Of a stretch of 64,000 bases of DNA, positions 27,152 through 39,410 are shown piece after piece. The stretch's first letter is position 1. Each line of letters opens with the position of its first letter. The DNA lies in the NCBI GenBank assembly GCA_026705925.1, contig JAPOZT010000011.1, positions 462,857 through 526,856 on the forward strand. Reading direction: 5' to 3'. The notes under the pieces were generated by a model. The model saw nothing but the letters and a program-made list of their open reading frames with translations, did not search any database and had not been told where the DNA came from. The DNA is from Gemmatimonadota bacterium (GTDB lineage: Bacteria > JAAXHH01). The translations under genes and the position numbers were made by a program.

Positions 27152-27889
27152 ATGGTCGATCTCGATTTCTTCAGGCAGAACGGCTACGTGAATCTCGGAC
27201 AGCCCTTTTCGCCGGAAGAGGTCAGTCGCTTCGTCGAACTGTACGACCGCGACCGTTCGGAGACGGGGTATTTCTGGCGGCCCATCGCCTTCGACGGCCA
27301 CCAGAGCGTGAACTGCGAGCCGCTCATCTCCTCCCCGGAATTCGACGGGCTCATTCGCCATCCCGCGCTCATCGACCCGATCGAGACCATCTTCGAAGGG
27401 CCCAGTTGCCTCGCGGAGGCCTGCCTGCGGCACATGGCGCCGCACGAGGGCGACCCGGTGGAAGTCTGGCACCGTGACCGGCGGCACATGACCGACCGGC
27501 CCTACCGGTGCGGCTACCTCCACATGATGCTATACCTGTCCGACGTAAGCGAGGAAACGCACTGCTTTTCGATCTCGCCTGAACCCTGCGACGGCCCCAT
27601 ACTGGAAATTGAGGAACAGGTCAAGCAGCGCGGCGGGGTCCACCTGCACGGACCGGCCGGCACGGTCATCCTCTTCAACCTGTCCGTGGTCCACGCCGCC
27701 ACCGTGCGGAAAACCACCCACGAACGCAAGTCCGTCCAGGTCTACTACGGCCATCGCGACGGACCCGTCCTCAGCCAGTATACCACCATCCCCACGGGCC
27801 TCTGGCGCGACCACCCCGATCCTGAAGTGCGCGGGTTCTACAGCCTGCTCAACACGCGCTCGCGGAAATTCGCCGAGGCGTTTGGGTGA
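27152..27889 (+). CDS. Phytanoyl-CoA dioxygenase-like (PhyH) oxygenase
   Basis: A 245-residue Fe(II)/2-oxoglutarate oxygenase. The facial triad is H107 and D109 in VWHRDRRHM and H181 in LSVVHAATVRKT; R192 in HERKSVQ is the likely 2-oxoglutarate-binding residue. The N-terminal LDFFRQNGYVNLGQPFSPEEV is the usual opening of this family. It shares only the motif framework with the other three PhyH proteins of the window, so it is not a recent duplicate. The gene follows the aminotransferase by 117 bp on the same strand. The substrate is unknown. Confidence 0.88.
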   Translation: MVDLDFFRQNGYVNLGQPFSPEEVSRFVELYDRDRSETGYFWRPIAFDGHQSVNCEPLISSPEFDGLIRHPALIDPIETIFEGPSCLAEACLRHMAPHEGDPVEVWHRDRRHMTDRPYRCGYLHMMLYLSDVSEETHCFSISPEPCDGPILEIEEQVKQRGGVHLHGPAGTVILFNLSVVHAATVRKTTHERKSVQVYYGHRDGPVLSQYTTIPTGLWRDHPDPEVRGFYSLLNTRSRKFAEAFG

Positions 27890-28082
27890 GTCGGCAATAC
27901 GTCGCTAGTCTGTCTGACATGACCAGCGAGGTTGTCGAGAAATCTTTACGAAACGAAGAGATCGGGGGGGTAAGTGCTGTTTTCAGGCCGGCGGGATTTC
28001 AATCCACATAGAAATAAGTGGAAAACGTAATCGTGCAGGCATCAATCTTTGGTCCGACCCATAACACAAACACAGCAACAAA

Positions 28083-28397
28083 TCATACGTGTATTGCACC
28101 CGCGCGCCGTTGGGCAGAGGCGCGATCACGGCGCGCCTGCGCAAGCTCGTAGCTCGCCTGTAACCGCATCCAGTGATCGGCAGTACTCCAGCCTATGTCT
28201 TCCAGCGCCAGTGCCAATTTGGCGGATATCCTCGCTTTACCGTTCAGAAGACGCGACAGTGTCCCTCGCTCACAACCGAGCCGAGTGGCCGTCTCTGTTA
28301 CGTTCCAACCCACATCGTCCATGCTCTCGCGGATCAGTTCGCCCAAGTGCGGCGGATTCAGCATCGGGCCAACGCGATCGCTATCAACATCGCGCAT
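28083..28397 (-). CDS. higA: HigA-family antitoxin
   Basis: A 104-residue protein whose core, LNPPHLGELIRESMDDVGWNVTETATRLGCERGTLSRLLNGKARISAKLALALEDIG (about residues 12-68), is the HigA addiction-module antidote signature with an XRE-type helix-turn-helix. This is followed by the usual ADHWMRLQASYELAQAR. The C-terminus ends in an Arg/Ala-rich stretch. ATG at 28397 is preferred; a GTG at 28406 would add three residues. It follows the toxin gene by about 18 bp, the normal higBA order, and should bind the toxin and repress the operon. Confidence 0.9.
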   Translation of the reverse strand: MRDVDSDRVGPMLNPPHLGELIRESMDDVGWNVTETATRLGCERGTLSRLLNGKARISAKLALALEDIGWSTADHWMRLQASYELAQARRDRASAQRRAGAIHV

Positions 28398-28415
28398 GAT
28401 CGTCACTCTCCCTTG

Positions 28416-28691
28416 TCAATGATAGTCGACCAGATCCACATCCACGACTTCACCGTCCTCAAACCGAAACACTACCCGCCAGTTACCTGAAACTCGGACG
28501 CTCCACTGGCCCGCACGGTCACCCTTCAGGGGATGCAGCCGGAAGCCCGGTGCGTCGGCGTCACGCGGATGCGTCGCCTCTTGCAGCCGAAACAGGATGC
28601 GTCGGAGCCGTGGCACCAGTTCAGTAGGCAGCCCACGCGTGGCGTTGTCCCACTCATGAAGTGCTCGCAGACCCTTGTGCCTGATTCTCAT
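28416..28691 (-). CDS. higB: HigB-family (RelE/ParE superfamily) toxin
   Basis: A 91-residue protein of the plasmid-maintenance killer type: KGLRALHEWDNATRGLP, then LVPRLRRILFRLQEATHP, and the catalytic-sheet segment QWSVRVSGNWRVVFRFEDGEVVDVDLVDYH, which is diagnostic for this group. Such toxins cleave mRNA on the ribosome. It is complete and upstream of its antitoxin, so the pair looks functional. The 243 bp upstream (28692-28934) are AT-rich, contain a weak inverted repeat at 28879-28902 and probably hold the promoter; no gene is visible there. Confidence 0.9.
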   Translation of the reverse strand: MRIRHKGLRALHEWDNATRGLPTELVPRLRRILFRLQEATHPRDADAPGFRLHPLKGDRAGQWSVRVSGNWRVVFRFEDGEVVDVDLVDYH

Positions 28692-28934
28692 GTTTCACTG
28701 TAATGGGCTGCGAGTTTTCTCTATAAACAACGATAATCCTGCCGGACAGCGACCAAGGCCTCACAGGGATGCTTCGCTTTTCCAACCCATCGGGTCAGCT
28801 TTAAAATCCAGTACCAATCTGCTGGTAGGATAACAATTTCATCAATATCTGACAAGTTGAAGTTTAACCTTCCCAACTACTGTATATACGACTGAATACA
28901 GTTGTAATATGACCGGAAACTTGAGTCGGAAATC

Positions 28935-29990
28935 TTACCCTTCTCCCCACGGCACATCGGACAGCCAGTTCCCCAGCCTGTCTCCGTAGGCAAACAGGGC
29001 CGGCAGTCCACCCGTATGGACGAACAGCACGCGGCTGCCGGCCGGGATGATGCCGGACCGCACGTGTTCGATCAACCCCGCCATCGTCTTGCCGGTATAG
29101 ACCGGGTCTAGGAGCAGCCCCTCCTGGCGGGCCGCCAGTGCGATCGCTTCGCGCACCGCGTCGTTGAGCCGACCGTAACCCGACGCCAGAACGCCGTCGA
29201 ATGCCATAACGTCGTCCGCGTCGAACACCTCCGGACGGTCGATCATCGAGGCCAGTTGCTCCGCTACTTTGCTTACACGTGCTACCTGGCTGCCGGTGTC
29301 GCGCCGCACGCAAATCCCGAATACAGGCACCTTCTTGCCCAGGGCCCGGAAGCCTACCAGAAGCCCCGCGTGTGTAAGTGCGCTGCCCGTGGGACAGACC
29401 ACGGCGTCAAATTCGAGATCAAGGTCCCGGGCCTGCGCCAGGGTCTCCTCGGCGGCGAGCACGTATCCGAGCGCGCCGAGTGGCGGATGGGCGGGGGCGA
29501 GATGGATCACGTAGGGCCTGCGGCCTTCCTCCGCGAGCGATTGGGCCAGAAGGTCCAGCGACGTGTCCGCCGCGGGTTCGTCCTCTCCGACCGGGAAGGA
29601 ATGCAGCGTCGCGCCGAAGAGCCGGTCGAGCAGCACGTTGCCGGATGACCGATAGAGGGCGTCCACGTCCGGTACGCGCTCTTCCATCTGAATGTGGGTC
29701 TCCATGCCGAGCTGGCGTCCGGCTGCAGCGGCCACGCGGACGTAGTTCGACTGCACCGCGCTCGTGATCAACAGGGTGTCGGCATCCCGGGACTGCGCCT
29801 CGCCCAGGGGGAATTCGAGCTGTCGGACCTTGTTGCCGCCCATGGCCAGCCCTGTGCAGTCGTCCCGTTTGATCCACAGCTCGATGCCGAGGGCCGCACC
29901 CAGACGCGGAGCGGCGTCCAGCGGCGTCGGGGCGTGGCCCAGCCGGACCCGGGGGAACTTCTCGATGGCTTTGGTGAGCGGGCTGTTCAT
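28935..29990 (-). CDS. PLP-dependent D-cysteine desulfhydrase / ACC deaminase family
   Basis: A 351-residue fold-type II PLP enzyme. LWIKRDDCTGLAMGGNKVRQLEF contains the Schiff-base lysine K54. LLITSAVQSNYVRVAAAAGRQLGM follows, with SNY replacing the usual SNH/QNH segment. VCPTGSALTHAGLLVGF is the phosphate-binding Gly-rich region (the family has GSGGT) and here reads PTGSALT. LLDPVYTGKTMAGLI is the family C-terminal signature. Known members degrade D-cysteine or 1-aminocyclopropane-1-carboxylate to ammonia and a keto acid. It is the last gene of a six-gene minus-strand operon, 7 bp after the GH32 gene. Confidence 0.88.
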   Translation of the reverse strand: MNSPLTKAIEKFPRVRLGHAPTPLDAAPRLGAALGIELWIKRDDCTGLAMGGNKVRQLEFPLGEAQSRDADTLLITSAVQSNYVRVAAAAGRQLGMETHIQMEERVPDVDALYRSSGNVLLDRLFGATLHSFPVGEDEPAADTSLDLLAQSLAEEGRRPYVIHLAPAHPPLGALGYVLAAEETLAQARDLDLEFDAVVCPTGSALTHAGLLVGFRALGKKVPVFGICVRRDTGSQVARVSKVAEQLASMIDRPEVFDADDVMAFDGVLASGYGRLNDAVREAIALAARQEGLLLDPVYTGKTMAGLIEHVRSGIIPAGSRVLFVHTGGLPALFAYGDRLGNWLSDVPWGEG

Positions 29991-29997
29991 GATGGGA

Positions 29998-31467
29998 TCA
30001 ACCCGTTTCCCACGCGGACCGAAGTTCGTGAACTACGAGTGATACGATGCGGACGCCGCCGTGCGTGCTCCCATCGTGCACGCTTCCACAGTTCGCCTTT
30101 AAGGCCAGCCGGTGATTGGTCGCGGCCGGCAGGAAGCAGAAGGACATGGACACTTCGCCCTGGTTGCCGAAGATCTCCAGCGAGGTCCGGTCGATCAGCA
30201 ACTGGAGGCTGACGCGACCGTCGATGGTACGCAGCGGCGCGGTTCGTCCCATACAGGACAACGTCCCCGCTTCCGCATCGTATTCCAAGGAATGGCCCTG
30301 GACTTCGACGGAAAATCCTCCGGCCTGGGCTTCCACCTCAACCTCCATCCGCACGTCGAACAGGTCGCCCTCGTCTGCCAGGACGAGCCGGCTTTCGGCC
30401 TCGCGCAGGTCCGTGACTGCGTAGCTGCTGATCGCTCCCGATTCGAACCGCTGATGGAACTGTTCGGCCGCCAATACCGCCAGGTCGCCGACAGGCCAGA
30501 TGTGCGTCCCGGTATGCAGCAGCTCGATTTCCCGCACCGGCTCCCTGCACAGCCGGATCCCATCCGGCAACGTCCTGAGCGTCAGATCAACCGGGAAGGA
30601 CATCTGCTGGTTGAAGGGCATGGACGGGTACCGGCCGCCCCGCATCCACGAGATCTGGATCCGCCGGCCGTCGTTCGACGGGATATCGCTCCAGGTCTGG
30701 GCGGCGTAACCGTTGGCGCCCTGCTCCGCCTGCAGGACATCCGTCTCGGGCGTGAACTCGCGGCCGTCGAACCTTCCCAGCAGGTAGCCGCCGCTCGCGC
30801 CCCAGAAGACCCACCGCGTGTTCGAGGGGTCGCCGTCCACCGGCAGCTCGAAGAAATCGGGGCACTCGGACACGCCGGGCAAGGTCAGGTCCTGCAGGTG
30901 CGTCCACGACTTCAGATCCGGTGACGAGAACAGGGCATAGTCGTTGTCATCCATGAACAGCGTCATGATCCACCGCGAAGTCGGTTCGTGCCAGACCACT
31001 TTCGGATCCCGGTTCTCCGCGCGGATGTGTCCGATGACCGGATTGCCGGCGTACTTCGTCCACGTCCGGCCGCGGTCGTTGCTGTGGGCGATACATTGTA
31101 TACACCGGCGACCGGGGAATATCTTTTCGCCGCCCGCCGTGTAGAAGGCGATCAGCGGCGGCGCGTCTCCGTCCCGGAACCCGCCGGTGTCATGATGGTC
31201 CACCGCCGCGGACCCCGACCACATCCAGCCCGTGTCGTCCACGTCCAGCGCGGCGGTGTGCAGCTGTTTCCAGTGCACCAGGTCCGTGCTGACCGCGTGT
31301 CCCCAGGTCGTGCGGCCGTGCACCATGCTGCCCGGCGTATGCTGGAAGTAGAGGTGGTACTCCCCGTCAGAATACACCAGACCGTTCGGATCGTTGATCC
31401 AGTGTTTTTGCGCCGTGAAGTGGAATTGGGGGCGTAGGGTTTCCCGGTAGAGGGTGTCGTTGGTCAT
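29998..31467 (-). CDS. Glycoside hydrolase family 32 (beta-fructofuranosidase/levanase type)
   Basis: A 489-residue GH32 enzyme with all three signature motifs: the nucleophile D26 in WINDPNG, the transition-state stabiliser D154 in NRDPKV, and the acid/base E201 in SECPDFFEL. A five-bladed propeller is followed by a beta-sandwich containing IDRTSLEIFGNQGEVSMSF, the usual end of family 32. There is no signal peptide, so it probably acts in the cytoplasm on sucrose-like or short fructan substrates. It lies between a PhyH gene (9 bp upstream) and the PLP enzyme (7 bp downstream). No sugar-specific transporter or fructokinase is immediately adjacent; a PfkB-type kinase lies beyond the operon at 37.7 kb. 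Confidence 0.94.
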   Translation of the reverse strand: MTNDTLYRETLRPQFHFTAQKHWINDPNGLVYSDGEYHLYFQHTPGSMVHGRTTWGHAVSTDLVHWKQLHTAALDVDDTGWMWSGSAAVDHHDTGGFRDGDAPPLIAFYTAGGEKIFPGRRCIQCIAHSNDRGRTWTKYAGNPVIGHIRAENRDPKVVWHEPTSRWIMTLFMDDNDYALFSSPDLKSWTHLQDLTLPGVSECPDFFELPVDGDPSNTRWVFWGASGGYLLGRFDGREFTPETDVLQAEQGANGYAAQTWSDIPSNDGRRIQISWMRGGRYPSMPFNQQMSFPVDLTLRTLPDGIRLCREPVREIELLHTGTHIWPVGDLAVLAAEQFHQRFESGAISSYAVTDLREAESRLVLADEGDLFDVRMEVEVEAQAGGFSVEVQGHSLEYDAEAGTLSCMGRTAPLRTIDGRVSLQLLIDRTSLEIFGNQGEVSMSFCFLPAATNHRLALKANCGSVHDGSTHGGVRIVSLVVHELRSAWETG

Positions 31468-31476
31468 CGCGGTCTT

Positions 31477-32316
31477 CTACTTCAGCGCCTGCCCGGGCAC
31501 GCGGTTCCACGCGATGGGTTCCGCCTCGCCTTCGTATACCGCAGTCAGCGGCTTCAGCGCGCCCCGGGTCGCGTCCGTCCACGTATCCGGCCGGGGATGG
31601 CGTGCCAGGTAGGCCTGGATGCGGCCGGGCAACTGGTGATACAGGGGGATGTACCAAAGGGTGATCACCGTGCGGCGCTGGTCGCTCTTGTTCCCGTGGG
31701 CCGCGTGCAGCAGGCGGGAATCCCCGATGACCAGATCTCCGGCCCGGACCGGCACGTCCACCTCGTTCACGGCGGGCTGGTAGGCCGGGTGATCGGGGTC
31801 AGCCATGGCCCGCAGGTCGCCCGTGTGCGCCTCCTCGACATACTGGTGAAGGGGATGGCGGTTCAGGTGGGAGCCGGCAATCACGCGGAGGCACCCGTTG
31901 TGCCGGTCGGTATCGACCAGGTAGTACATCAGGAAAACCTGCTGCGGCGGCGGCTCGTAGCTGCAGGGATCGTCCCATCCCCACCAGTCCTGGTGCCAGA
32001 ACAGCGCCGGGCTGCGGGGCGGCTTGCTGATGACGTACCCGGAGGACCAGGTGGGCCGGTCGAACCCGAGATCTGCGAGCGCGGCGAGCGGCGGAGGATA
32101 CGAGACCAGTTCGGCGAAGAACACGTCGTCGAAGACGCTGACCATGCTGCCCGTAGATTTCTGCTCCTCGAAGTGGGACGGGGACTGGGCGTCAAGCAGC
32201 CGGTCGGAGACGGTTCGCACGCGTTCCAGCATTTCGGGCTTCAACACCCCCTCGACTACGCAGAAGCCGTCTCTCAAGAGCTGGTCGTACTTGTCCTGCG
32301 CCGATCGAGCTGCCAT
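31477..32316 (-). CDS. Phytanoyl-CoA dioxygenase-like (PhyH) oxygenase
   Basis: A 279-residue Fe(II)/2-oxoglutarate oxygenase. H108 and D110 in FWHQDWWGWDDP are the first two iron ligands. H204 or H207 in SRLLHAAHGNKS is the third and R214 the probable 2-oxoglutarate anchor. VIAGSHLNRHPLHQ precedes the distal half. The stretch of Trp and acidic residues after HxD is common in PhyH enzymes that act on polar small molecules. It is embedded in the ABC/DUF1854/GH32 operon, 27 bp after the DUF1854 gene and 9 bp before GH32, so its substrate is probably related to whatever the exporter handles. Confidence 0.9.
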   Translation of the reverse strand: MAARSAQDKYDQLLRDGFCVVEGVLKPEMLERVRTVSDRLLDAQSPSHFEEQKSTGSMVSVFDDVFFAELVSYPPPLAALADLGFDRPTWSSGYVISKPPRSPALFWHQDWWGWDDPCSYEPPPQQVFLMYYLVDTDRHNGCLRVIAGSHLNRHPLHQYVEEAHTGDLRAMADPDHPAYQPAVNEVDVPVRAGDLVIGDSRLLHAAHGNKSDQRRTVITLWYIPLYHQLPGRIQAYLARHPRPDTWTDATRGALKPLTAVYEGEAEPIAWNRVPGQALK

Positions 32317-32343
32317 TGCCTTCCTCCCGCGCTCGCCGATCCG

Positions 32344-32892
32344 TCACACATTGGTCTCGATCAACTGTATGCTGTGGGCATCCAGGCGGGTGTAATCCAC
32401 TACCTCGAACCGGTTGCCGTCGACGTCGGTGAGCAAGAGCCGCGAATCCGACGCCCAGTGGGTGTTCTCGTGGCCGCGGATGACGAACTCGCGCTTGCCC
32501 CGGTCGGTCATGACGTCCCAGTAGGTGACGCCGTATTCCATCTGTATGGAGTTCACCCGTTCGATCGTCGCCCGCAGGTACCGGTGGGCCAGCTCTTCCT
32601 CGATGACCTTTCGGGAATCTTCGTCCAGGTCGTTCAGGTCCTTGATGAAGGCCACTTCCTCGTTCTTGATGTCCAGGAGCGACACGTACCGGTCCGAGTG
32701 AGCCATGGGGGAGGCGTTGACCGGCCGGACGCGGATGTAGGACCGCTCGTCGCGGACCGTCATGCGCACGGTGTTCTTCGGCGCCCGGAAGACCCGGATC
32801 TCGCTCGCCTGGTAGGGTTCGACGGGGGCGTTCTCGATCCCCGTCTCGAATTCAAAGGTGTCCGGCGCGTCTACGCCAGGTTCATCCGGCAT
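32344..32892 (-). CDS. DUF1854 family protein
   Basis: A 182-residue soluble protein. The central part reads VRDERSYIRVRPVNASPMAHSDRYVSLLDIKNEEVAFIKDLNDLDEDSRKVIEEELAHRYLRATI (about residues 55-120), which I recognise as the DUF1854 pattern, and it ends with a beta-rich part LLLTDVDGNRFEVVDYTRLD. In other bacteria DUF1854 genes occur beside an ABC exporter near cyanophycin genes; no cyanophycin synthetase is visible here. The gene follows the two ABC genes with a 14-bp gap. Its molecular role is unknown; it may be a cytoplasmic partner of the exporter. Confidence 0.82.
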   Translation of the reverse strand: MPDEPGVDAPDTFEFETGIENAPVEPYQASEIRVFRAPKNTVRMTVRDERSYIRVRPVNASPMAHSDRYVSLLDIKNEEVAFIKDLNDLDEDSRKVIEEELAHRYLRATIERVNSIQMEYGVTYWDVMTDRGKREFVIRGHENTHWASDSRLLLTDVDGNRFEVVDYTRLDAHSIQLIETNV

Positions 32893-32906
32893 CTCGATCT
32901 CCCCGC

Positions 32907-35213
32907 TCAGTTTGTATGTCCGTTGGCGCCGCGGTTCGGGTCGGCCTTGCCCCCGCCCACGGCCATGACCGCGGTGCTCGCCCGCTGCGTTTCGACCATG
33001 CGGTAGAAATGGCCCTTCATGTCCAGCAGTTCCTCATGGGTGCCCGTCTCCACGATCTTTCCCGCGTCCAGTACCACCAGGCGGTCCGCCCGGCGGAGGG
33101 TCGAAAGCCGGTGGGCGATGGCGAAAGTCGTCCGGCCCTTCACGAGGTTGGCGATGGCCTCCTGGATGAGCTTCTCCGTGTGGGTGTCCACCGACGAAGT
33201 GGCCTCGTCCAGGACCAGGATGCGTGGATCGTGGATGATGGCCCGCGCGATGGCGATCCGCTGCTTTTCGCCACCCGACAGCTCCTTGCCGTTCTCGCCG
33301 ATCTGCGTGTCGTATCCGTCGGGCTTCGCGCAGATGAAATCGTGGGCGTTCGCCGTCCGCGCCGCCCGCATGATCTGATCGATCGAGGCGTCCGGACTGC
33401 TGTACCGGATGTTCTCCGCGATGGAGCCGCTGAAGAAATAGGAGTCCTGCAGCACGACGCCGATCTGCCTTCGCAGGTCCTTCAGGCCGATGTCCCGGAT
33501 CGGCACGCCGTCGATCTCCAGGTTGCCGTCGTCGATATCGTAGAACCGGCAGAGCAGGTTGGTCATCGTCGTCTTGCCCGACCCGGACTTGCCCACCAGC
33601 CCGATCATCTCGCCGGGCTGCACGTGGAGGCTGATGTCGTGGAGGACCGGCTTGCCCGCCTCGTAGGCAAAGGTAACGTCTTCGAATTCCACCTCGCCCT
33701 TCATGTCCTTCATCTCGACCGGGTCATCCCGGTCCTCGGTTTCCGCCGGGGTGTCGACGATTTCGAAGACCTTCTCCGCACCGCTCATGGCCCGGCTCGA
33801 CCAGGTGTTCAGCTCGCCGAACCACCGAAGGGGTTCGTACAGCATCCAGAGGTAGGCGATGAACATGATGAGGGCGCCGGTGGTGAAGGTGTCGTCAATG
33901 ACGGCGATTCCCCCGTAATACCAGACCAGGATCATTCCGGACGACGTCAGCATGCTGACCGTGCTGAAGAAAACGGCCGCTTCCTTCTCGCTCTCGTAAT
34001 CGCCCCGGAAGACCCCTTCGTTGCTGCTCCTGAACCGGCGCATCTCCCGCTTTTCCTGGACGAAGGTCTTTACGACGCGCACCGAGGAAAGCATCTCGCC
34101 CGCCATGCCCACCAGCTTGCCCCAGCGGTAGTATTTCGTCCGGAACGCCCGGATCAGCCGGACCCAGAAATACCCCCCGCCGATGACGAGCAAAGGTATG
34201 GGAATGAGCACCATGAGCGTCAGTTGCCAGCTGGTCACGAATAACAGGACCAGGATGCCCACCAGGAGCAGGAGGTTGGTCAGGATATAGGGCACGCCGT
34301 CGACCAGGAACCACATCATGCTTTCCGTGTCATTGGACACCCGTGAGATCAGGGACCCCACCTGCCGCTTGTTGTAGAACTTCATGCTCAGGCGGGAGAG
34401 GTTTTCGTACAGGTCTTCGCGGACGGACACGATCACGCGGCCACCAAGCCAGACGGAAAGGCGGTCCTTGAAGATCTCCAGGACGAAGGATACGAGGCGG
34501 ATGACCGCGTAGGCGACGACGAGCAGGTAGAGGAACGCGAACGGGTCCCCGGCCACACCGTCGGCAGGGACGCCGCCGGCCGAGACGCCAAGCACATCGT
34601 CGATGATGCGCCCCATGATGTAGGGCGGGCCGAGTTCGGCCAGGGTGAACAGGAGCGACAGGAAGACCATCAGCGCGAGCTTGCCCTTGAACGGCAGGGC
34701 GTATCGGGCGATCCGCTGCATCATCGCGAGCCGGTTTGTGCACGCCGAACAGATCCCGTTCGGTTCGGGCAGGAGGCGTCCGCACCGGTCGCACCGGGTC
34801 TTGTCGACCTCCCCCTGCATGTCGACCGGATCTTCCTTGATGAGCTGGTCGATACCCCGGGCGATCCGCGCAAACTTGGCGCGCTGGGACGGGGTGTAGC
34901 GGATGACCTCGACGTCTTCGTTCCCGATCACCACGTTGATCCGGCCCGAGCCGACCAGTTCCTCCACGGCGGCGCTCTTGGCGTCGGACAGCTCGATGGA
35001 CGCGTCCCCGTTTCCCGTGCCTGCCCCGTTCGAATCGAACCGCAACAGGCGCTGGTCCGTCACCAGGAGCCAGCGTTCCTCGAACCGCAGGTCTTCGGTA
35101 AGGTCGGTCGCCGCCGCGATGCGGATGGACTCTCCTTCCCGCAGCGCCGCCTGGCAACGGTCGGCCAGGGCGTCGGGCATCCGCTCTTTGTAGGTGGCCC
35201 TTGTGTCGGTCAT
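32907..35213 (-). CDS. ABC exporter (fused TMD-NBD) with N-terminal PH-like domain and zinc ribbon
   Basis: A 768-residue half-exporter. About residues 1-125 form a beta-rich domain (RFEERWLLVTDQRLLRFD resembles bacterial PH-like domains). A zinc-ribbon-like CDRCGRLLPEPNGICSAC (two CxxC pairs) follows at about 141-158. A six-helix exporter membrane domain spans about 170-460. The ATPase domain has Walker A GKSGSGKTT, signature LSGGEKQR, Walker B ILVLDEATSS and the H-loop in AIAHRLSTL. It is expected to pair with the product of the overlapping upstream gene (4-bp ATGA overlap) as a heterodimer in the cytoplasmic membrane. Extra N-terminal domains of this kind are unusual for exporters. The substrate is unknown. 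Confidence 0.9.
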   Translation of the reverse strand: MTDTRATYKERMPDALADRCQAALREGESIRIAAATDLTEDLRFEERWLLVTDQRLLRFDSNGAGTGNGDASIELSDAKSAAVEELVGSGRINVVIGNEDVEVIRYTPSQRAKFARIARGIDQLIKEDPVDMQGEVDKTRCDRCGRLLPEPNGICSACTNRLAMMQRIARYALPFKGKLALMVFLSLLFTLAELGPPYIMGRIIDDVLGVSAGGVPADGVAGDPFAFLYLLVVAYAVIRLVSFVLEIFKDRLSVWLGGRVIVSVREDLYENLSRLSMKFYNKRQVGSLISRVSNDTESMMWFLVDGVPYILTNLLLLVGILVLLFVTSWQLTLMVLIPIPLLVIGGGYFWVRLIRAFRTKYYRWGKLVGMAGEMLSSVRVVKTFVQEKREMRRFRSSNEGVFRGDYESEKEAAVFFSTVSMLTSSGMILVWYYGGIAVIDDTFTTGALIMFIAYLWMLYEPLRWFGELNTWSSRAMSGAEKVFEIVDTPAETEDRDDPVEMKDMKGEVEFEDVTFAYEAGKPVLHDISLHVQPGEMIGLVGKSGSGKTTMTNLLCRFYDIDDGNLEIDGVPIRDIGLKDLRRQIGVVLQDSYFFSGSIAENIRYSSPDASIDQIMRAARTANAHDFICAKPDGYDTQIGENGKELSGGEKQRIAIARAIIHDPRILVLDEATSSVDTHTEKLIQEAIANLVKGRTTFAIAHRLSTLRRADRLVVLDAGKIVETGTHEELLDMKGHFYRMVETQRASTAVMAVGGGKADPNRGANGHTN

Positions 35214-37411
35214 GCCACCTCCATGATCTCGGATGTGGCTTTCTGCAGCCGCACCAGGTGATGGAAGTGACCGCGGTTGGCGATCAGTTCTTCGTGGGTG
35301 CCTTCTTCGACGACCCTGCCCTGCTCCAGCACCACCAGCCGGTCGGCGTCCCGCAGCGTGGACAGGCGGTGGGCGATGGCGATCGTCGTGCGGCCCTTGA
35401 TCAGCCGAGCGATGGCTTCCTGGAGCTGTTTCTCCGTCTCGGCGTCTACCGAGGACGTGGCCTCGTCCAGGATCAGGATGCGGGGGTCGTGAAGGATCGC
35501 CCGGGCGATGGAGACGCGCTGCTTCTCGCCACCCGACAGCCCCGTGCCCTTATCCCCGAGAATCGTATCGTATCCATCGGGCTTCGCGAGAATGAAGTTG
35601 TGGGCGTTGGCCGCCCGGGCCGCCGCCATGATGTCCTCGAAACTCGCGGCGGGCTTCCCGTAGGCGATGTTCTCCCGGATCGTCCCGTTGAAAAGGATCG
35701 GTTCCTGCAGGACGACCCCGATATGGCCCCGCAGGTCCTCGAGCCGGATGTCCCGCAGGTCCACGCCGTCCAGCGTGATCGAACCGTAGTTCACGTCGTA
35801 GAACCGGCAGATGAGATTGATGGTCGTACTCTTCCCGGCGCCCGACTTGCCGACCAGCCCGATCATCTCGCCGGGCCGGATATGGAGATTGACGTCCCGC
35901 AGCACCGGCAGCGCGGCGTCGTACCCGAACGTCACGCCGTGGAACCTGATCTCGCCCCGCGTTTGCAGCATCTGCTTCGCGTTCTTGTCCTCGTAGTTCT
36001 CCGGTTCCATGTCGATAAGCTCAAAGACCCGTTCGGCGGCGCTCATGGCCCGCGTCATCCAGCTGTTGACCCGGCCGAGCCACCGCAGCGGACCGTAGAA
36101 CATCTGCAGGTAGAAGTAGAACAGGATCAGTTCGCCCAGGGTGAGTTCCTGTCCGAGCACCTGCCCGCCCCCCACCAGCCACACCACGATGAAGCCCAGG
36201 AAGTTCAGCAGGCCCATGGTGGAGAAGTAGTAGATCCACTGTTTCTCGGTCCAGTACTCCAGGGCGAACATGTCCCTCGCGTTGCGTTTGAACCGGCCTA
36301 CCTCCCTGTTCTCCTGGGCGAAGGCCTTGACGATCCGTATCCCCGACAGGGATTCCTGGATGTGGGTGAAAAACCCTTCCCACTGGCGCCACATGCGGGT
36401 GTAGTAAGTCCGCAATCTCCGGTACAGGACCCTTCCCCAGATGATGATGAGCGGCACGGGGATGAGGATGTAGAGCGTGAGCACCCAGTTGGTGTAGAAC
36501 AGTATGCCGATAATCCCGAGCGTCGTCATCCAGCGGAGGATGAGGAAGGGCAGGCCGTCCACCAGGAAACTGCGCACGTTCCGGGTGTCCCGCGTCACGC
36601 GCGAAAGCAGGCCGCCCGTCTTCTGCTTGTCGTGGAAGCCCAGCGAAAGGTATTCGACGTGATGGTACACCTGGGCCCGGATATCCGCCACCACGCGGGC
36701 GCCCACCCAGGCCGTCAGCCAGCCGTTCGCCATCTCCCCCAGCCAGCGGAGGACGAGCAGGCCGGCCATGGCCGCGACGAACCAGAACAGCAGGTCCACG
36801 TCCTCGTTCGCGAAGGCGTCGTCGATGATGAGCTGCGTTATCTTGGGCGGAAGGAGCTCCGCCACGCTGAGCACGGCGAACAGCGCCACCATGGCGATGG
36901 CCTTGGCCCGGTGGGCGCCCAGGTAGGCGCAGATCCGCTTGAGCATGCCCCACTTGCTGACGCAGGCGGGACACAGCCCGTCCCGGGTGGGCAGGCGCCT
37001 GCCGCAGGTTTCGCAGACCACCCGGGGGAATTCCGTCTTGACCTGGAACGGCTTTTCCTCGATGTGCTGCTCGATGCCGCGCTGCGCCTCGTTGAAGACG
37101 TCCACGCGGCTCTGGGAATAGCGGATCAGCGGAATCGTGTCATCGGCCGTGGAGACCTCAAGGCAGGAGCCGCCTACCAGGGGTTCCACCGCCACCCTGG
37201 TCAGGTCCTCCAGCGGGACGGCGATGTCGTCGCCGGCGCCGTTGAGTTCCAATGCCATGACGCGGCGGTCGGTTACGATGAGCCAGGAGGGCTGGAAACG
37301 GCCTTTCGCATCCAGGTCCGATTCCAGGGTGATGTGGATTTCTTCGTCGGTTTCCAGTACGGGGTAGAGTTTCTTTTGAATCTGATCCGGCAGGGGATCG
37401 GCCAGGCGCAT
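35210..37411 (-). CDS. ABC exporter (fused TMD-NBD) with N-terminal PH-like domain and zinc ribbon, second subunit
   Basis: A 733-residue protein with the same plan as the next gene: N-terminal beta-rich domain (PSWLIVTDRRVMALELNG), a zinc ribbon CETCGRRLPTRDGLCPAC at about 158-175, six membrane helices, then an ATPase with GKSGAGKSTT, LSGGEKQRVS, ILILDEATSS and AIAHRLSTL. Both ATPase sites of the pair therefore look intact, unlike many heterodimeric exporters. The ATG at 37411 is chosen because AAAGGAAG lies 6-7 nt upstream; the frame is open to 37474. It is the first gene of the operon ABC-ABC-DUF1854-PhyH-GH32-PLP enzyme. Confidence 0.9.
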   Translation of the reverse strand: MRLADPLPDQIQKKLYPVLETDEEIHITLESDLDAKGRFQPSWLIVTDRRVMALELNGAGDDIAVPLEDLTRVAVEPLVGGSCLEVSTADDTIPLIRYSQSRVDVFNEAQRGIEQHIEEKPFQVKTEFPRVVCETCGRRLPTRDGLCPACVSKWGMLKRICAYLGAHRAKAIAMVALFAVLSVAELLPPKITQLIIDDAFANEDVDLLFWFVAAMAGLLVLRWLGEMANGWLTAWVGARVVADIRAQVYHHVEYLSLGFHDKQKTGGLLSRVTRDTRNVRSFLVDGLPFLILRWMTTLGIIGILFYTNWVLTLYILIPVPLIIIWGRVLYRRLRTYYTRMWRQWEGFFTHIQESLSGIRIVKAFAQENREVGRFKRNARDMFALEYWTEKQWIYYFSTMGLLNFLGFIVVWLVGGGQVLGQELTLGELILFYFYLQMFYGPLRWLGRVNSWMTRAMSAAERVFELIDMEPENYEDKNAKQMLQTRGEIRFHGVTFGYDAALPVLRDVNLHIRPGEMIGLVGKSGAGKSTTINLICRFYDVNYGSITLDGVDLRDIRLEDLRGHIGVVLQEPILFNGTIRENIAYGKPAASFEDIMAAARAANAHNFILAKPDGYDTILGDKGTGLSGGEKQRVSIARAILHDPRILILDEATSSVDAETEKQLQEAIARLIKGRTTIAIAHRLSTLRDADRLVVLEQGRVVEEGTHEELIANRGHFHHLVRLQKATSEIMEVA

Positions 37412-37628
37412 GTAACTTCCTTTGGGACCTTGCTGCGGGGCGTGCCGCCTTGAGGACTGAACGGGACCGGTCATATATCAATAAAGTGGATGCATCCGTA
37501 ACGTTTCACTGCTTCGAATGCGAATTGAAGTCCTGGGACAGGGTGAGGAAATCGCGGCTCGCTCCAGTTCGCAAAGGTACACTTTCTAAGCCCGAAAATC
37601 AAGGAAAAGCAGCCTGCCGAAATCGTTT

Positions 37629-37641
37629 ATTTACTGTAAAT
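37629..37641. promoter_or_regulatory. Small palindrome upstream of the PfkB kinase
   Basis: ATTTAC-T-GTAAAT, a perfect 6-bp inverted repeat around one base, lies about 40 bp before the PfkB start in AT-rich DNA. The same arms ATTTAC/GTAAAT occur at 19611-19626. It may be an operator; the evidence is slight. Confidence 0.3.
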
Positions 37642-37679
37642 ACTTTGATTTACGTCCACTGGATCTTACATTGCCTGAG

Positions 37680-38696
37680 ATGACTCCATACCGCCTCGAA
37701 AGCCTGCTGTCCCGCTTCGCCGGCCTATCCATCATGGTCGTGGGCGACTTCTTCCTGGACAAGTACCTGGTCCTCGATCCGGCACTGGACGAACCGTCCC
37801 TGGAGACGGGGCTGGCCGCGCGCCAGGTCGTGGCCAGACGCTGCATGCCCGGCGCCGCGGGCACGGTCGTGGCCAACCTGCACGCCCTGGGCGTCGGAGA
37901 CCTGTTCGCCGTGGGGATCACGGGCGACGACGGGGAGGGGTACGAGCTCAGGCAGGGCCTGGCGGCCATGGGGGTCCGCCTCGACGGACTGGTCGAATCC
38001 CCGGACCGGTTCACACCCACCTACATCAAGCCCATGAACCGGGAATCGGGAGGAGAACGGGAATCAAGCCGCATCGACATACAGAACCGGACGCCCACGC
38101 CGCGTGACCTGGAAGGCCGGTTGATCGAATTCATGGAAGACATGACGCCCGGGGTGGACGGCGTGGCCGTCCTGGACCAGGTGGGACAGCGCAACACGGG
38201 GGTTGTCACGGACCGGGTCCGGGATGCGCTCTGTGGCCTGGGCAGGACATTGCCGGACAAGGTCATGCTGGCGGATTCGCGCGAACGCATCAGCGAATTC
38301 CGCCACGTCATCCGCAAGGGGAACCGGGACGAGATGCGCGGAGCGTCCGAAAAATCGGGGTTGGGAAAGATGCGCGGAACGGACGTAGGAATGGCGCGGC
38401 CGGTTTACGTCACCCTCGGCGCGGACGGCCTGCTGCTGATCGACGGCGAAGACCGCCGGCATGTGCCCGGCATACGCGTTCCGGGGCCCGTGGACACCGT
38501 CGGGGCCGGGGACAGCGTCACGGCCGGGATCGTGGCCTCGCTGGCCGCCGGCGCGACGCCCATGGAGGCCGGCCTGGTCGGCAACCTCGCGGCTTCGGTC
38601 ACCGTCCGTCAACTGGGAGTCACGGGAACGGCCTCGCCCACGCAATTGGCGGAAGCATTGAAGATACTGATGGAAGATAAGAAGACGCCGGGCTGA
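37680..38696 (+). CDS. PfkB-family carbohydrate kinase
   Basis: A 338-residue ribokinase-fold protein resembling the kinase half of heptose-phosphate kinases (RfaE/HldE) in its opening RLESLLSRFAGLSIMVVGDFFLDKYL. Gly-rich motif 1 is AARQVVARRCMPGAAGTVVANLHALGV; the C-terminal PfkB signature is GPVDTVGAGDSVTAGIVASLAAGA with the catalytic Asp in GAGDS. The internal part has an inserted charged loop around HVIRKGNRDEMRGASEKSG. The substrate cannot be fixed. ATG 37680 is preferred to a TTG nine bases upstream. It is divergent from the ABC operon across about 270 bp. Confidence 0.85.
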   Translation: MTPYRLESLLSRFAGLSIMVVGDFFLDKYLVLDPALDEPSLETGLAARQVVARRCMPGAAGTVVANLHALGVGDLFAVGITGDDGEGYELRQGLAAMGVRLDGLVESPDRFTPTYIKPMNRESGGERESSRIDIQNRTPTPRDLEGRLIEFMEDMTPGVDGVAVLDQVGQRNTGVVTDRVRDALCGLGRTLPDKVMLADSRERISEFRHVIRKGNRDEMRGASEKSGLGKMRGTDVGMARPVYVTLGADGLLLIDGEDRRHVPGIRVPGPVDTVGAGDSVTAGIVASLAAGATPMEAGLVGNLAASVTVRQLGVTGTASPTQLAEALKILMEDKKTPG

Positions 38697-38774
38697 GGGG
38701 GTCGTATCCAGTTTCGGAGTTGCGGCCGAACAGGTGGTTCGGCACGGCAGGTGGTACGGCACGAATTAAATCGT

Positions 38775-39410
38775 CTAACGAGGATCTACCTTCCAGAAAT
38801 TGAAGACCACTGAGGCGGCGACCGGAATCCACTGGACGTTCCGGTTGTTGAATGCGCGAATGTACCGGACGTCCAGCGCCAGGCCGACCGTGGACGTCAT
38901 CGGCAAATGCACGCCGCCGCCGATGAGGATGCTGAATGAAGTCTCTGAACTGAACGCGGTCAACTTCGTGCCGCGCATGGTACCGAAGAACCGGTCGATT
39001 GCCCTGGAGTAGCCGATGCCGCCCACCCCGTAGACAGCCGCGGGGGAAGTGGCGGTCTTGTACATCAATCCGAAGTTGGCGCCTTCCAGGCTTACGTTGG
39101 CATCCACGTCCGGTCCTAGTCGCTGCAGCGCGTCGTCACTCAGGCGATCCCGGTCGTGTTGGCCGCGTTTGACGGAAAAGAGGTTGTCATAGCCGTTGAA
39201 CGCGAGATGAACGGATTCGGAAACGCGTACCGTTATCCCCAGGAGGAACAGGGATCCTCTGGTTTTTCCGTCCGCAAAATCGCCTGAAGGAATACTCCGC
39301 CCGCCGCCCAGGCTGATCGACATGCGCTTTTCAGGGTCCTGGGCGAATCCCTTGCCGGTGGCCGGCAACGAGACTGCGGTAGCAAGCAGGATTAAGACGA
39401 TCTTCTTCAT
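38775..39410 (-). CDS. Putative outer-membrane beta-barrel protein
   Basis: A 211-residue protein. The first 23 residues are a signal peptide (MKKIVLILLATAVSLPATGKGFAQ). The rest alternates hydrophobic and polar residues in short strands, with SISLGGGRSIPSGDFADG near the N-terminus and a final VAASVVFNFWKVDPR ending close to an aromatic residue, as in OmpA/OmpW-like barrels of about eight strands. I do not recognise a specific family. The ATG at 39408-39410 is the one directly before the signal peptide. It lies about 62 bp after the helicase gene in the same direction and would sit in the outer membrane, implying a diderm organism. Confidence 0.7.
   Translation of the reverse strand: MKKIVLILLATAVSLPATGKGFAQDPEKRMSISLGGGRSIPSGDFADGKTRGSLFLLGITVRVSESVHLAFNGYDNLFSVKRGQHDRDRLSDDALQRLGPDVDANVSLEGANFGLMYKTATSPAAVYGVGGIGYSRAIDRFFGTMRGTKLTAFSSETSFSILIGGGVHLPMTSTVGLALDVRYIRAFNNRNVQWIPVAASVVFNFWKVDPR

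Follow-up and report, generated by a model that had tools for sequence, protein, structure and literature searches.

DUF1854 and a tandem pair of PH-type ABC exporters at a Gemmatimonadota locus: architecture, distribution and possible partnership

Among described systems, two NCBIfam models come closest to the one considered here, namely NF052233 (CphA_assoc_ABC), for an ATP-binding cassette (ABC) exporter, and NF052234 (CphA_assoc_prot), for a DUF1854 protein; the MsbA-type (type IV) exporters and the bacterial pleckstrin homology (PH) domains (bPH_3, DUF1696) are also related. The system lies in a stretch of 64,000 nucleotides from a Gemmatimonadota bacterium (contig JAPOZT010000011.1, positions 462,857 to 526,856), called the window below. 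Its minus strand carries six adjacent genes running from 37474 (or 37411) to 28935: two ABC exporter genes (ABC1 and ABC2), a DUF1854 gene, and genes for a PhyH-family dioxygenase, a GH32 enzyme and a pyridoxal phosphate (PLP) enzyme of the PALP family. What is new here is how strongly DUF1854 and exporters of this class go together, and it is fairly probable that the first three genes are a functional unit, that is to say, a heterodimeric MsbA-like exporter with a soluble DUF1854 protein as its obligate third component.

NF052233 is the best NCBIfam model for both exporters (ABC1 625.6 bits, ABC2 609.2 bits), and the match spans nearly the full length, including the N-terminal module; NF052234 is the best for the DUF1854 protein. 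However, the window proteins score under the curated cut-offs of 880 and 150 bits, there are two tandem exporter genes in the window, and its genome holds no cyanophycin synthetase above cut-off. In common with MsbA-type exporters, the pair has ABC_membrane fused to ABC_tran, canonical motifs and matches to the MsbA_lipidA model (481.5 and 448.9 bits), but these are under that model's cut-off of 602, and the window adds a PH fold, a four-cysteine ribbon and a DUF1854 companion. Unlike bPH_3 and DUF1696, the PH domain of the window precedes an ABC exporter and is succeeded by the ribbon. The core is a heterodimeric variant of a named, uncharacterised exporter family, for which a tight partner is documented here. 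Within the searches made, the claim of the original prediction that no such system has been described holds for the whole set of six genes; the exporter and DUF1854 each have a name in NCBIfam. In the open-access PMC literature no mention of DUF1854 or PF08909 was found, nor any ABC exporter combining a PH domain with a zinc ribbon, and the exporter–DUF1854 pair is not mentioned in the passages on cyanophycin consulted from PMC5178258 and PMC5670224.

The exporter pair and the DUF1854 protein

Each exporter carries, before the membrane domain, an N-terminal domain whose predicted fold matches solved PH domains, followed by a ribbon of two CxxC pairs; fold prediction and motif alignment agree on this arrangement, which had been proposed from the sequence. 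The two CxxC pairs are conserved in 59/59 chosen rows and in 80/80 family exporter rows, a zinc-ribbon pattern from which metal binding is predicted. A bPH_3 sequence match at E <= 0.01 occurs in only 14 of the 59 rows. Walker A, signature, Walker B glutamate and H-loop are intact in both window exporters, so that by domains and motifs ABC1 and ABC2 are assigned to the type IV exporters. All of 81 rows, including a paralogue described below, keep Walker A and H-loop, while Walker B is kept in 80, of which 79 are family rows. Ten rows miss the plain signature pattern, which is kept in 70 of the 80 family rows; five of the off-pattern signatures are three LAGG, one MSGG and one LSVGE. The second exporter halves of L040, L043 and L106 have the ATPase signature LAGG, not LSGG.

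A quick maximum-likelihood tree with Shimodaira–Hasegawa-like approximate likelihood ratio (SH-aLRT) support was made from the 81 rows, leaving out one internal-stop copy each of L073 and L097, the near-copies L031, L032, L034 and L035 of the window's own genus, and places under 1.9 kb. Outside that genus, first and second halves separate into two clades with SH-aLRT 100 each, and therefore the exporter pair appears to be an old heterodimer, at least outside the genus. The first-half clade has 23 rows and the second-half clade 29, the latter made up of 24 second halves and five single copies, four of them from Poribacteria records. In addition, 20 single copies, mostly from Armatimonadota records, form a separate clade, and one Poribacteria single copy (L060) stands alone.

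By its Pfam score (Table 1) the DUF1854 protein belongs to PF08909; it has the motif DVDGNRFE and is soluble as judged from its sequence. Against the sequences of solved structures it gave zero matches, and nothing firm emerged among the comparisons of its model with known folds. Sequence kinship between DUF1854 and the exporter N-terminus was considered and rejected (hhalign probability 1.1). Zero DUF1854 matches were obtained in the plasmid records searched.

Linkage and co-occurrence of DUF1854 with the exporter class

For gene-order counts, the best 80 of 153 DUF1854 loci were used. In 55 of these, the 1 kb upstream of DUF1854 holds at least one co-directional family exporter: 30 loci have tandem pairs, 16 a single exporter with room for more and nine a single exporter near a contig edge, while 19 have none within 1 kb and six are too near an edge. 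In seven of the 19 a co-directional exporter lies farther upstream, at 1.0–5.2 kb, and in the remaining 12 this test found none; each of these 12 genomes nevertheless has a match to the PH-ribbon N-terminus in some place, with E values no higher than 4.2e-43. Exporter pieces are seen at one of these 12 loci, L048, where a frame of 419 aa starts some 795 bases ahead of the DUF1854 match, carries exporter PH-ribbon and membrane sequence and ends in DUF1854; this fused frame may come either from an in-frame loss or from an assembly error.

Co-occurrence was counted in 288 genomes, the window's own (G000) included, of which 16 belong to its order and the remainder are domain-wide; scoring was limited to 12 first-look candidates in each. 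DUF1854 was found in 25 genomes and the exporter N-terminal profile in 24, both together in 23; Fisher's test on these raw counts, with genomes treated as independent, gives 1.2e-30 over the full set and 1.4e-11 when only the 272 genomes from other orders are taken. The two genomes with DUF1854 only (G121 and G325) carry a family exporter directly upstream, of 36–39% identity and with a diverged N-terminus, and the one with the profile only (G300) apparently owes it to a methionyl-tRNA synthetase; these three corrections were made by eye and kept out of the Fisher test. Since 23 genomes share the profile and G121 and G325 carry the upstream exporter, all 25 DUF1854 genomes of the survey have a family exporter, which bears out the expectation that DUF1854 accompanies ABC exporters. 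The strongest functional statement to be drawn from these sequence comparisons is that DUF1854 would serve the PH-type exporter class.

The locus and the genes behind DUF1854

As shown in Table 1, the ORF calls agree with the predicted arrangement of six minus-strand genes, separated by junctions of -4, 14, 27, 9 and 7 bp. Pfam assigns them to two ABC exporters, DUF1854, PhyH, GH32 and PALP, every match being above cut-off. No promoter-like site was found by a promoter scan of the divergent intergenic region, and an Rfam search of 27800-38800 gave zero matches at gathering score. The closest records to the locus are metagenome-assembled genomes titled Gemmatimonadetes or Candidatus Latescibacterota, which we take to be of sponge origin. 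Immediately behind the PALP gene lies a HigB-HigA toxin-antitoxin pair (28083-28691), present also in some members of the genus (G001, G006 and G007) and not found or fragmentary in others.

Table 1. Features of the locus in the window, in window coordinates (ORF, open reading frame)
Feature	Position	Strand	Evidence and remarks
ABC1, first exporter half	35210..37474; probable start 37411	-	PH-fold domain, CxxC-x10-CxxC ribbon, ABC_membrane, ABC_tran ATPase; ORF, Pfam, NCBIfam, predicted fold, motifs
ABC2, second exporter half	32907..35213	-	ABC1-like architecture; 4-bp overlap with ABC1 stop; ORF, Pfam, NCBIfam, motifs
DUF1854 protein, 182 aa	32344..32892	-	Pfam PF08909 137.5 bits (cut-off 26.8); NF052234 102.2 bits; alignment; model
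PhyH-family 2-oxoglutarate/iron dioxygenase	31477..32316	-	Pfam PF05721 98.0 bits (cut-off 22); nearest solved SnoK 5epa
GH32, fructosidase/exo-inulinase-like	29998..31467	-	Pfam PF00251 221.0 bits (cut-off 22.1); nearest solved 8i12
PLP enzyme, D-cysteine desulfhydrase / 1-aminocyclopropane-1-carboxylate (ACC) deaminase / CuyA group	28935..29990	-	Pfam PALP; CuyA best NCBIfam; nearest solved 7ysk
Divergent intergenic region, ABC1 and PfkB-like gene	37475..37670		ORF calls, Pfam, promoter scan
PfkB-like gene	37671-38696	+	Divergent neighbour of ABC1

As for the three downstream enzymes, the PhyH protein is far from solved enzymes (SnoK at E 5e-8). With it as query, 73 first-look candidates were obtained in its own genome and 54-91 per genome in 17 genomes, which suggests that the PhyH family is strongly expanded in these genomes; a second PhyH gene lies in the window itself (27152-27889). 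The nearest solved relative of the GH32 protein is an exo-inulinase (E 1.2e-65), and no signal peptide was seen when its N-terminus was inspected by eye. The PLP enzyme belongs to the PALP family, with 7ysk at E 1.7e-75, and matches the models of CuyA cysteate sulfo-lyase (357.2 bits, cut-off 450), D-cysteine desulfhydrase (best DcyD model 277.1, cut-off 429) and ACC deaminase (226.5, cut-off 392), but lies under the curated cut-off of each; on this evidence it is a D-cysteine desulfhydrase-like protein, an assignment at group level only.

In the original prediction the exporter works together with the three enzymes encoded behind DUF1854. This was examined by tblastn (over 60 bits, same strand, within 8 kb behind DUF1854) at loci with at least 3 kb downstream. 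Outside the genus, none of 66 such loci, 49 of them with at least 8 kb, matches any of the three window enzymes, so that ABC-ABC-DUF1854 without matching downstream genes is the rule there; within the genus, five of the six loci in the test match, and the sixth (L036) stops at a contig edge. That is to say, the six-gene order does not extend beyond close relatives.

Even among the 12 genomes of the genus, the window's own counted, the order is variable. The six genes are contiguous in six of them (G000, G002, G003, G005, G006 and G011), and in G009 five genes reach the contig start, with PALP in two overlapping pieces. G001 has the first three genes and PALP only; a GH32 match at E <= 1e-20 is lacking there, and its best PhyH match does not exceed 39%. 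In G007 the first three genes are followed by an inserted island and then by PhyH-GH32-PALP, read across a contig break; in G008 they are followed by an island and GH32-PALP, PhyH being missing. G010 has DUF1854, a leucine-rich repeat (LRR) protein and GH32-PALP, with the exporter N-termini on another contig, and in G004, which is fragmented, type-I DUF1854 was not found. PALP orthologues occur in all 12 genomes with 85-100% identity (76% for the second G009 piece), one being partial and one split, GH32 in 10 and PhyH (87% or more) in eight. The downstream enzymes are tied to the pump by position alone, and that position varies.

The island adjoins the core where DUF1854 lies, and its three genes, which run opposite to the core (L118:5826-9808 in G008; L165:1-3103 and L166:1165-2080, two contig ends, in G007), encode a protein with a weak C2H2-like match, a protein without firm family and an Hsp70-like protein; PADLOC gave zero matches for the three L118 proteins. 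The insertion in G010 (L120:2439-5813) is a 1124-aa frame with LRR and Big_2 domains, which replaces PhyH between DUF1854 and GH32. As read from gene orientation only, transcription of GH32 (or PhyH) would have to begin anew behind the island in G007 and G008, so that a single unit running through position 32316 would not hold in these relatives.

Readings of the locus

How the first three genes might work can be outlined as follows. ABC1 and ABC2 would form the pump, each half bearing in the cytosol a PH-fold domain and a ribbon with four cysteines. The DUF1854 protein would dock on the cytosolic side, the PH-ribbon module being the simplest site for this, and DUF1854 and these modules at the cytosolic mouth may present or recruit the substrate, or gate ATP hydrolysis. 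Transport may be outward, of an amphipathic or envelope-bound molecule; this is the weakest step and a tentative guess, made because of the MsbA-like fold, the PH fold and a MacA-MacB-TolC-like set (by eye) beside the relative in G121. PhyH, GH32 and PALP would then be lineage-specific additions downstream of the core that may in part share its transcript but do not belong to the pump. The broader reading, on which we stand evenly divided, is that a widespread class of ABC transporters, so far unrecognised, has an N-terminal PH domain (ribbon optional) and would need DUF1854 as an obligate subunit in the cytosol, with no cyanophycin tie in the tested genomes. This class would be branched into heterodimeric (the window), single-gene (Armatimonadota; Poribacteria without the first half) and BtuF-like-coupled forms, and DUF1854 itself may have a new fold or else be PH-like, a second such module that meets the one in the exporter.

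Several points weigh against this account of the first three genes. The contact between DUF1854 and the exporter is a predicted link, and co-occurrence could instead reflect regulation or a common pathway. DUF1854 is often unlinked in Armatimonadota records, which is odd for a stoichiometric subunit. ABC1 and ABC2 of the own genus lie on long branches outside both clades of the tree, with unsure placement. Several other DUF1854 loci have PhyH-like genes nearby, although in genomes so rich in PhyH this is probably a coincidence. Moreover, no neighbour kept at a fixed position across distant groups names a substrate; response regulators, PhyH-like proteins, short-chain dehydrogenases and sulfatases (by eye) were rejected in this role, as they recur in four to nine loci at varied places, the neighbour gene calls being longest-ORF calls that are crude in GC-rich DNA. 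Finally, a paralogous DUF1854-ABC pair behind a periplasmic binding protein would fit import.

That paralogous pair is the second DUF1854 locus of the window's genome (G000:C24 = L111:6493-10321), with a Peripla_BP_2 protein, a ribbon-less PH-type ABC and DUF1854. A third DUF1854 type in the order (L153, L154, L156 and L158) has one ABC, 39-42% identical to ABC1, together with a divergent DUF1854 that shares 27-28% identity with that of L111.

Exporter-fold importers exist, for example IrtAB, and the DUF1854-ABC class might be another such case, in which a BtuF-like protein would supply the paralogue with its ligand and the window pair might likewise work inward. G013, G014 and G015 share the order of binding protein, PH-type ABC and DUF1854 with nine of the 12 genus genomes, the own genome included; in the other three the locus lies at a contig end. 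The binding protein passes the TroA_like subfamily model, with BtuF and others under cut-off. However, loci L031-L110 and the type-I loci L112-L123 are without a match to this binding protein, and the MacA-MacB-TolC-like set lies upstream of the pair in G121. Since each genus genome also has one FecCD permease, which the binding protein could serve, it is not necessarily the partner of the ABC. Import is an unlikely reading of the class.

Slightly less probable again is that all six genes make up one pathway for the production and export of a polar metabolite, which PhyH would hydroxylate and in whose maturation or salvage GH32 and the PLP enzyme would take part. The tight co-directional spacing in the window and the contiguous genes in half of the genus, with five up to the contig start in G009, agree with it. 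So do the PhyH-like proteins, below 60 bits to the window's, near L127 (G054, a 26% match 4.6 kb behind DUF1854) and near seven other DUF1854 loci (by eye), in two of which, L052 and L067, they lie downstream on the same strand. But these genomes hold dozens of PhyH candidates, G001 lacks GH32 and a close PhyH, none of the 66 loci tested outside the genus has a matching downstream enzyme, and the set is split by the opposite-strand island in G007 and G008 and by the LRR gene in G010. A single pathway was accordingly rejected on conservation and on the insertions at the DUF1854/PhyH junction, and the six-gene pathway is a weak lead.

The NCBIfam names suggest a role of exporter and DUF1854 in cyanophycin or a related amino-acid polymer, and NF052233 and NF052234 are indeed the best models, but all three window proteins score under the cut-offs. 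This reading is very improbable and was rejected, no synthetase above cut-off being found in the own genome or in 51 handles. The lack of a cyanophycin gene, noted earlier for the locus, was now checked genome-wide: in the own genome (assembly about 94% complete) TIGR02068 gave partial matches, the best with 106.9 bits against a cut-off of 850, and in the 51 handles, which all bear DUF1854 and equal 49 distinct genomes (G059 and G083 duplicating G013 and G012 in position and score), none reached that cut-off when up to 14 first-look candidates were scored in each; one of 14 control genomes was above it. Because no synthetase passes in the own genome or in these handles, annotation through the "cyanophycin" names could mislead.

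The association of DUF1854 with the PH-type exporters is widely conserved and independent of both cyanophycin synthetase and the downstream genes of the window. From Latescibacterota to Armatimonadota records, DUF1854 is paired with one exporter class in every genome examined, which makes it a tractable case for the study of partner function.

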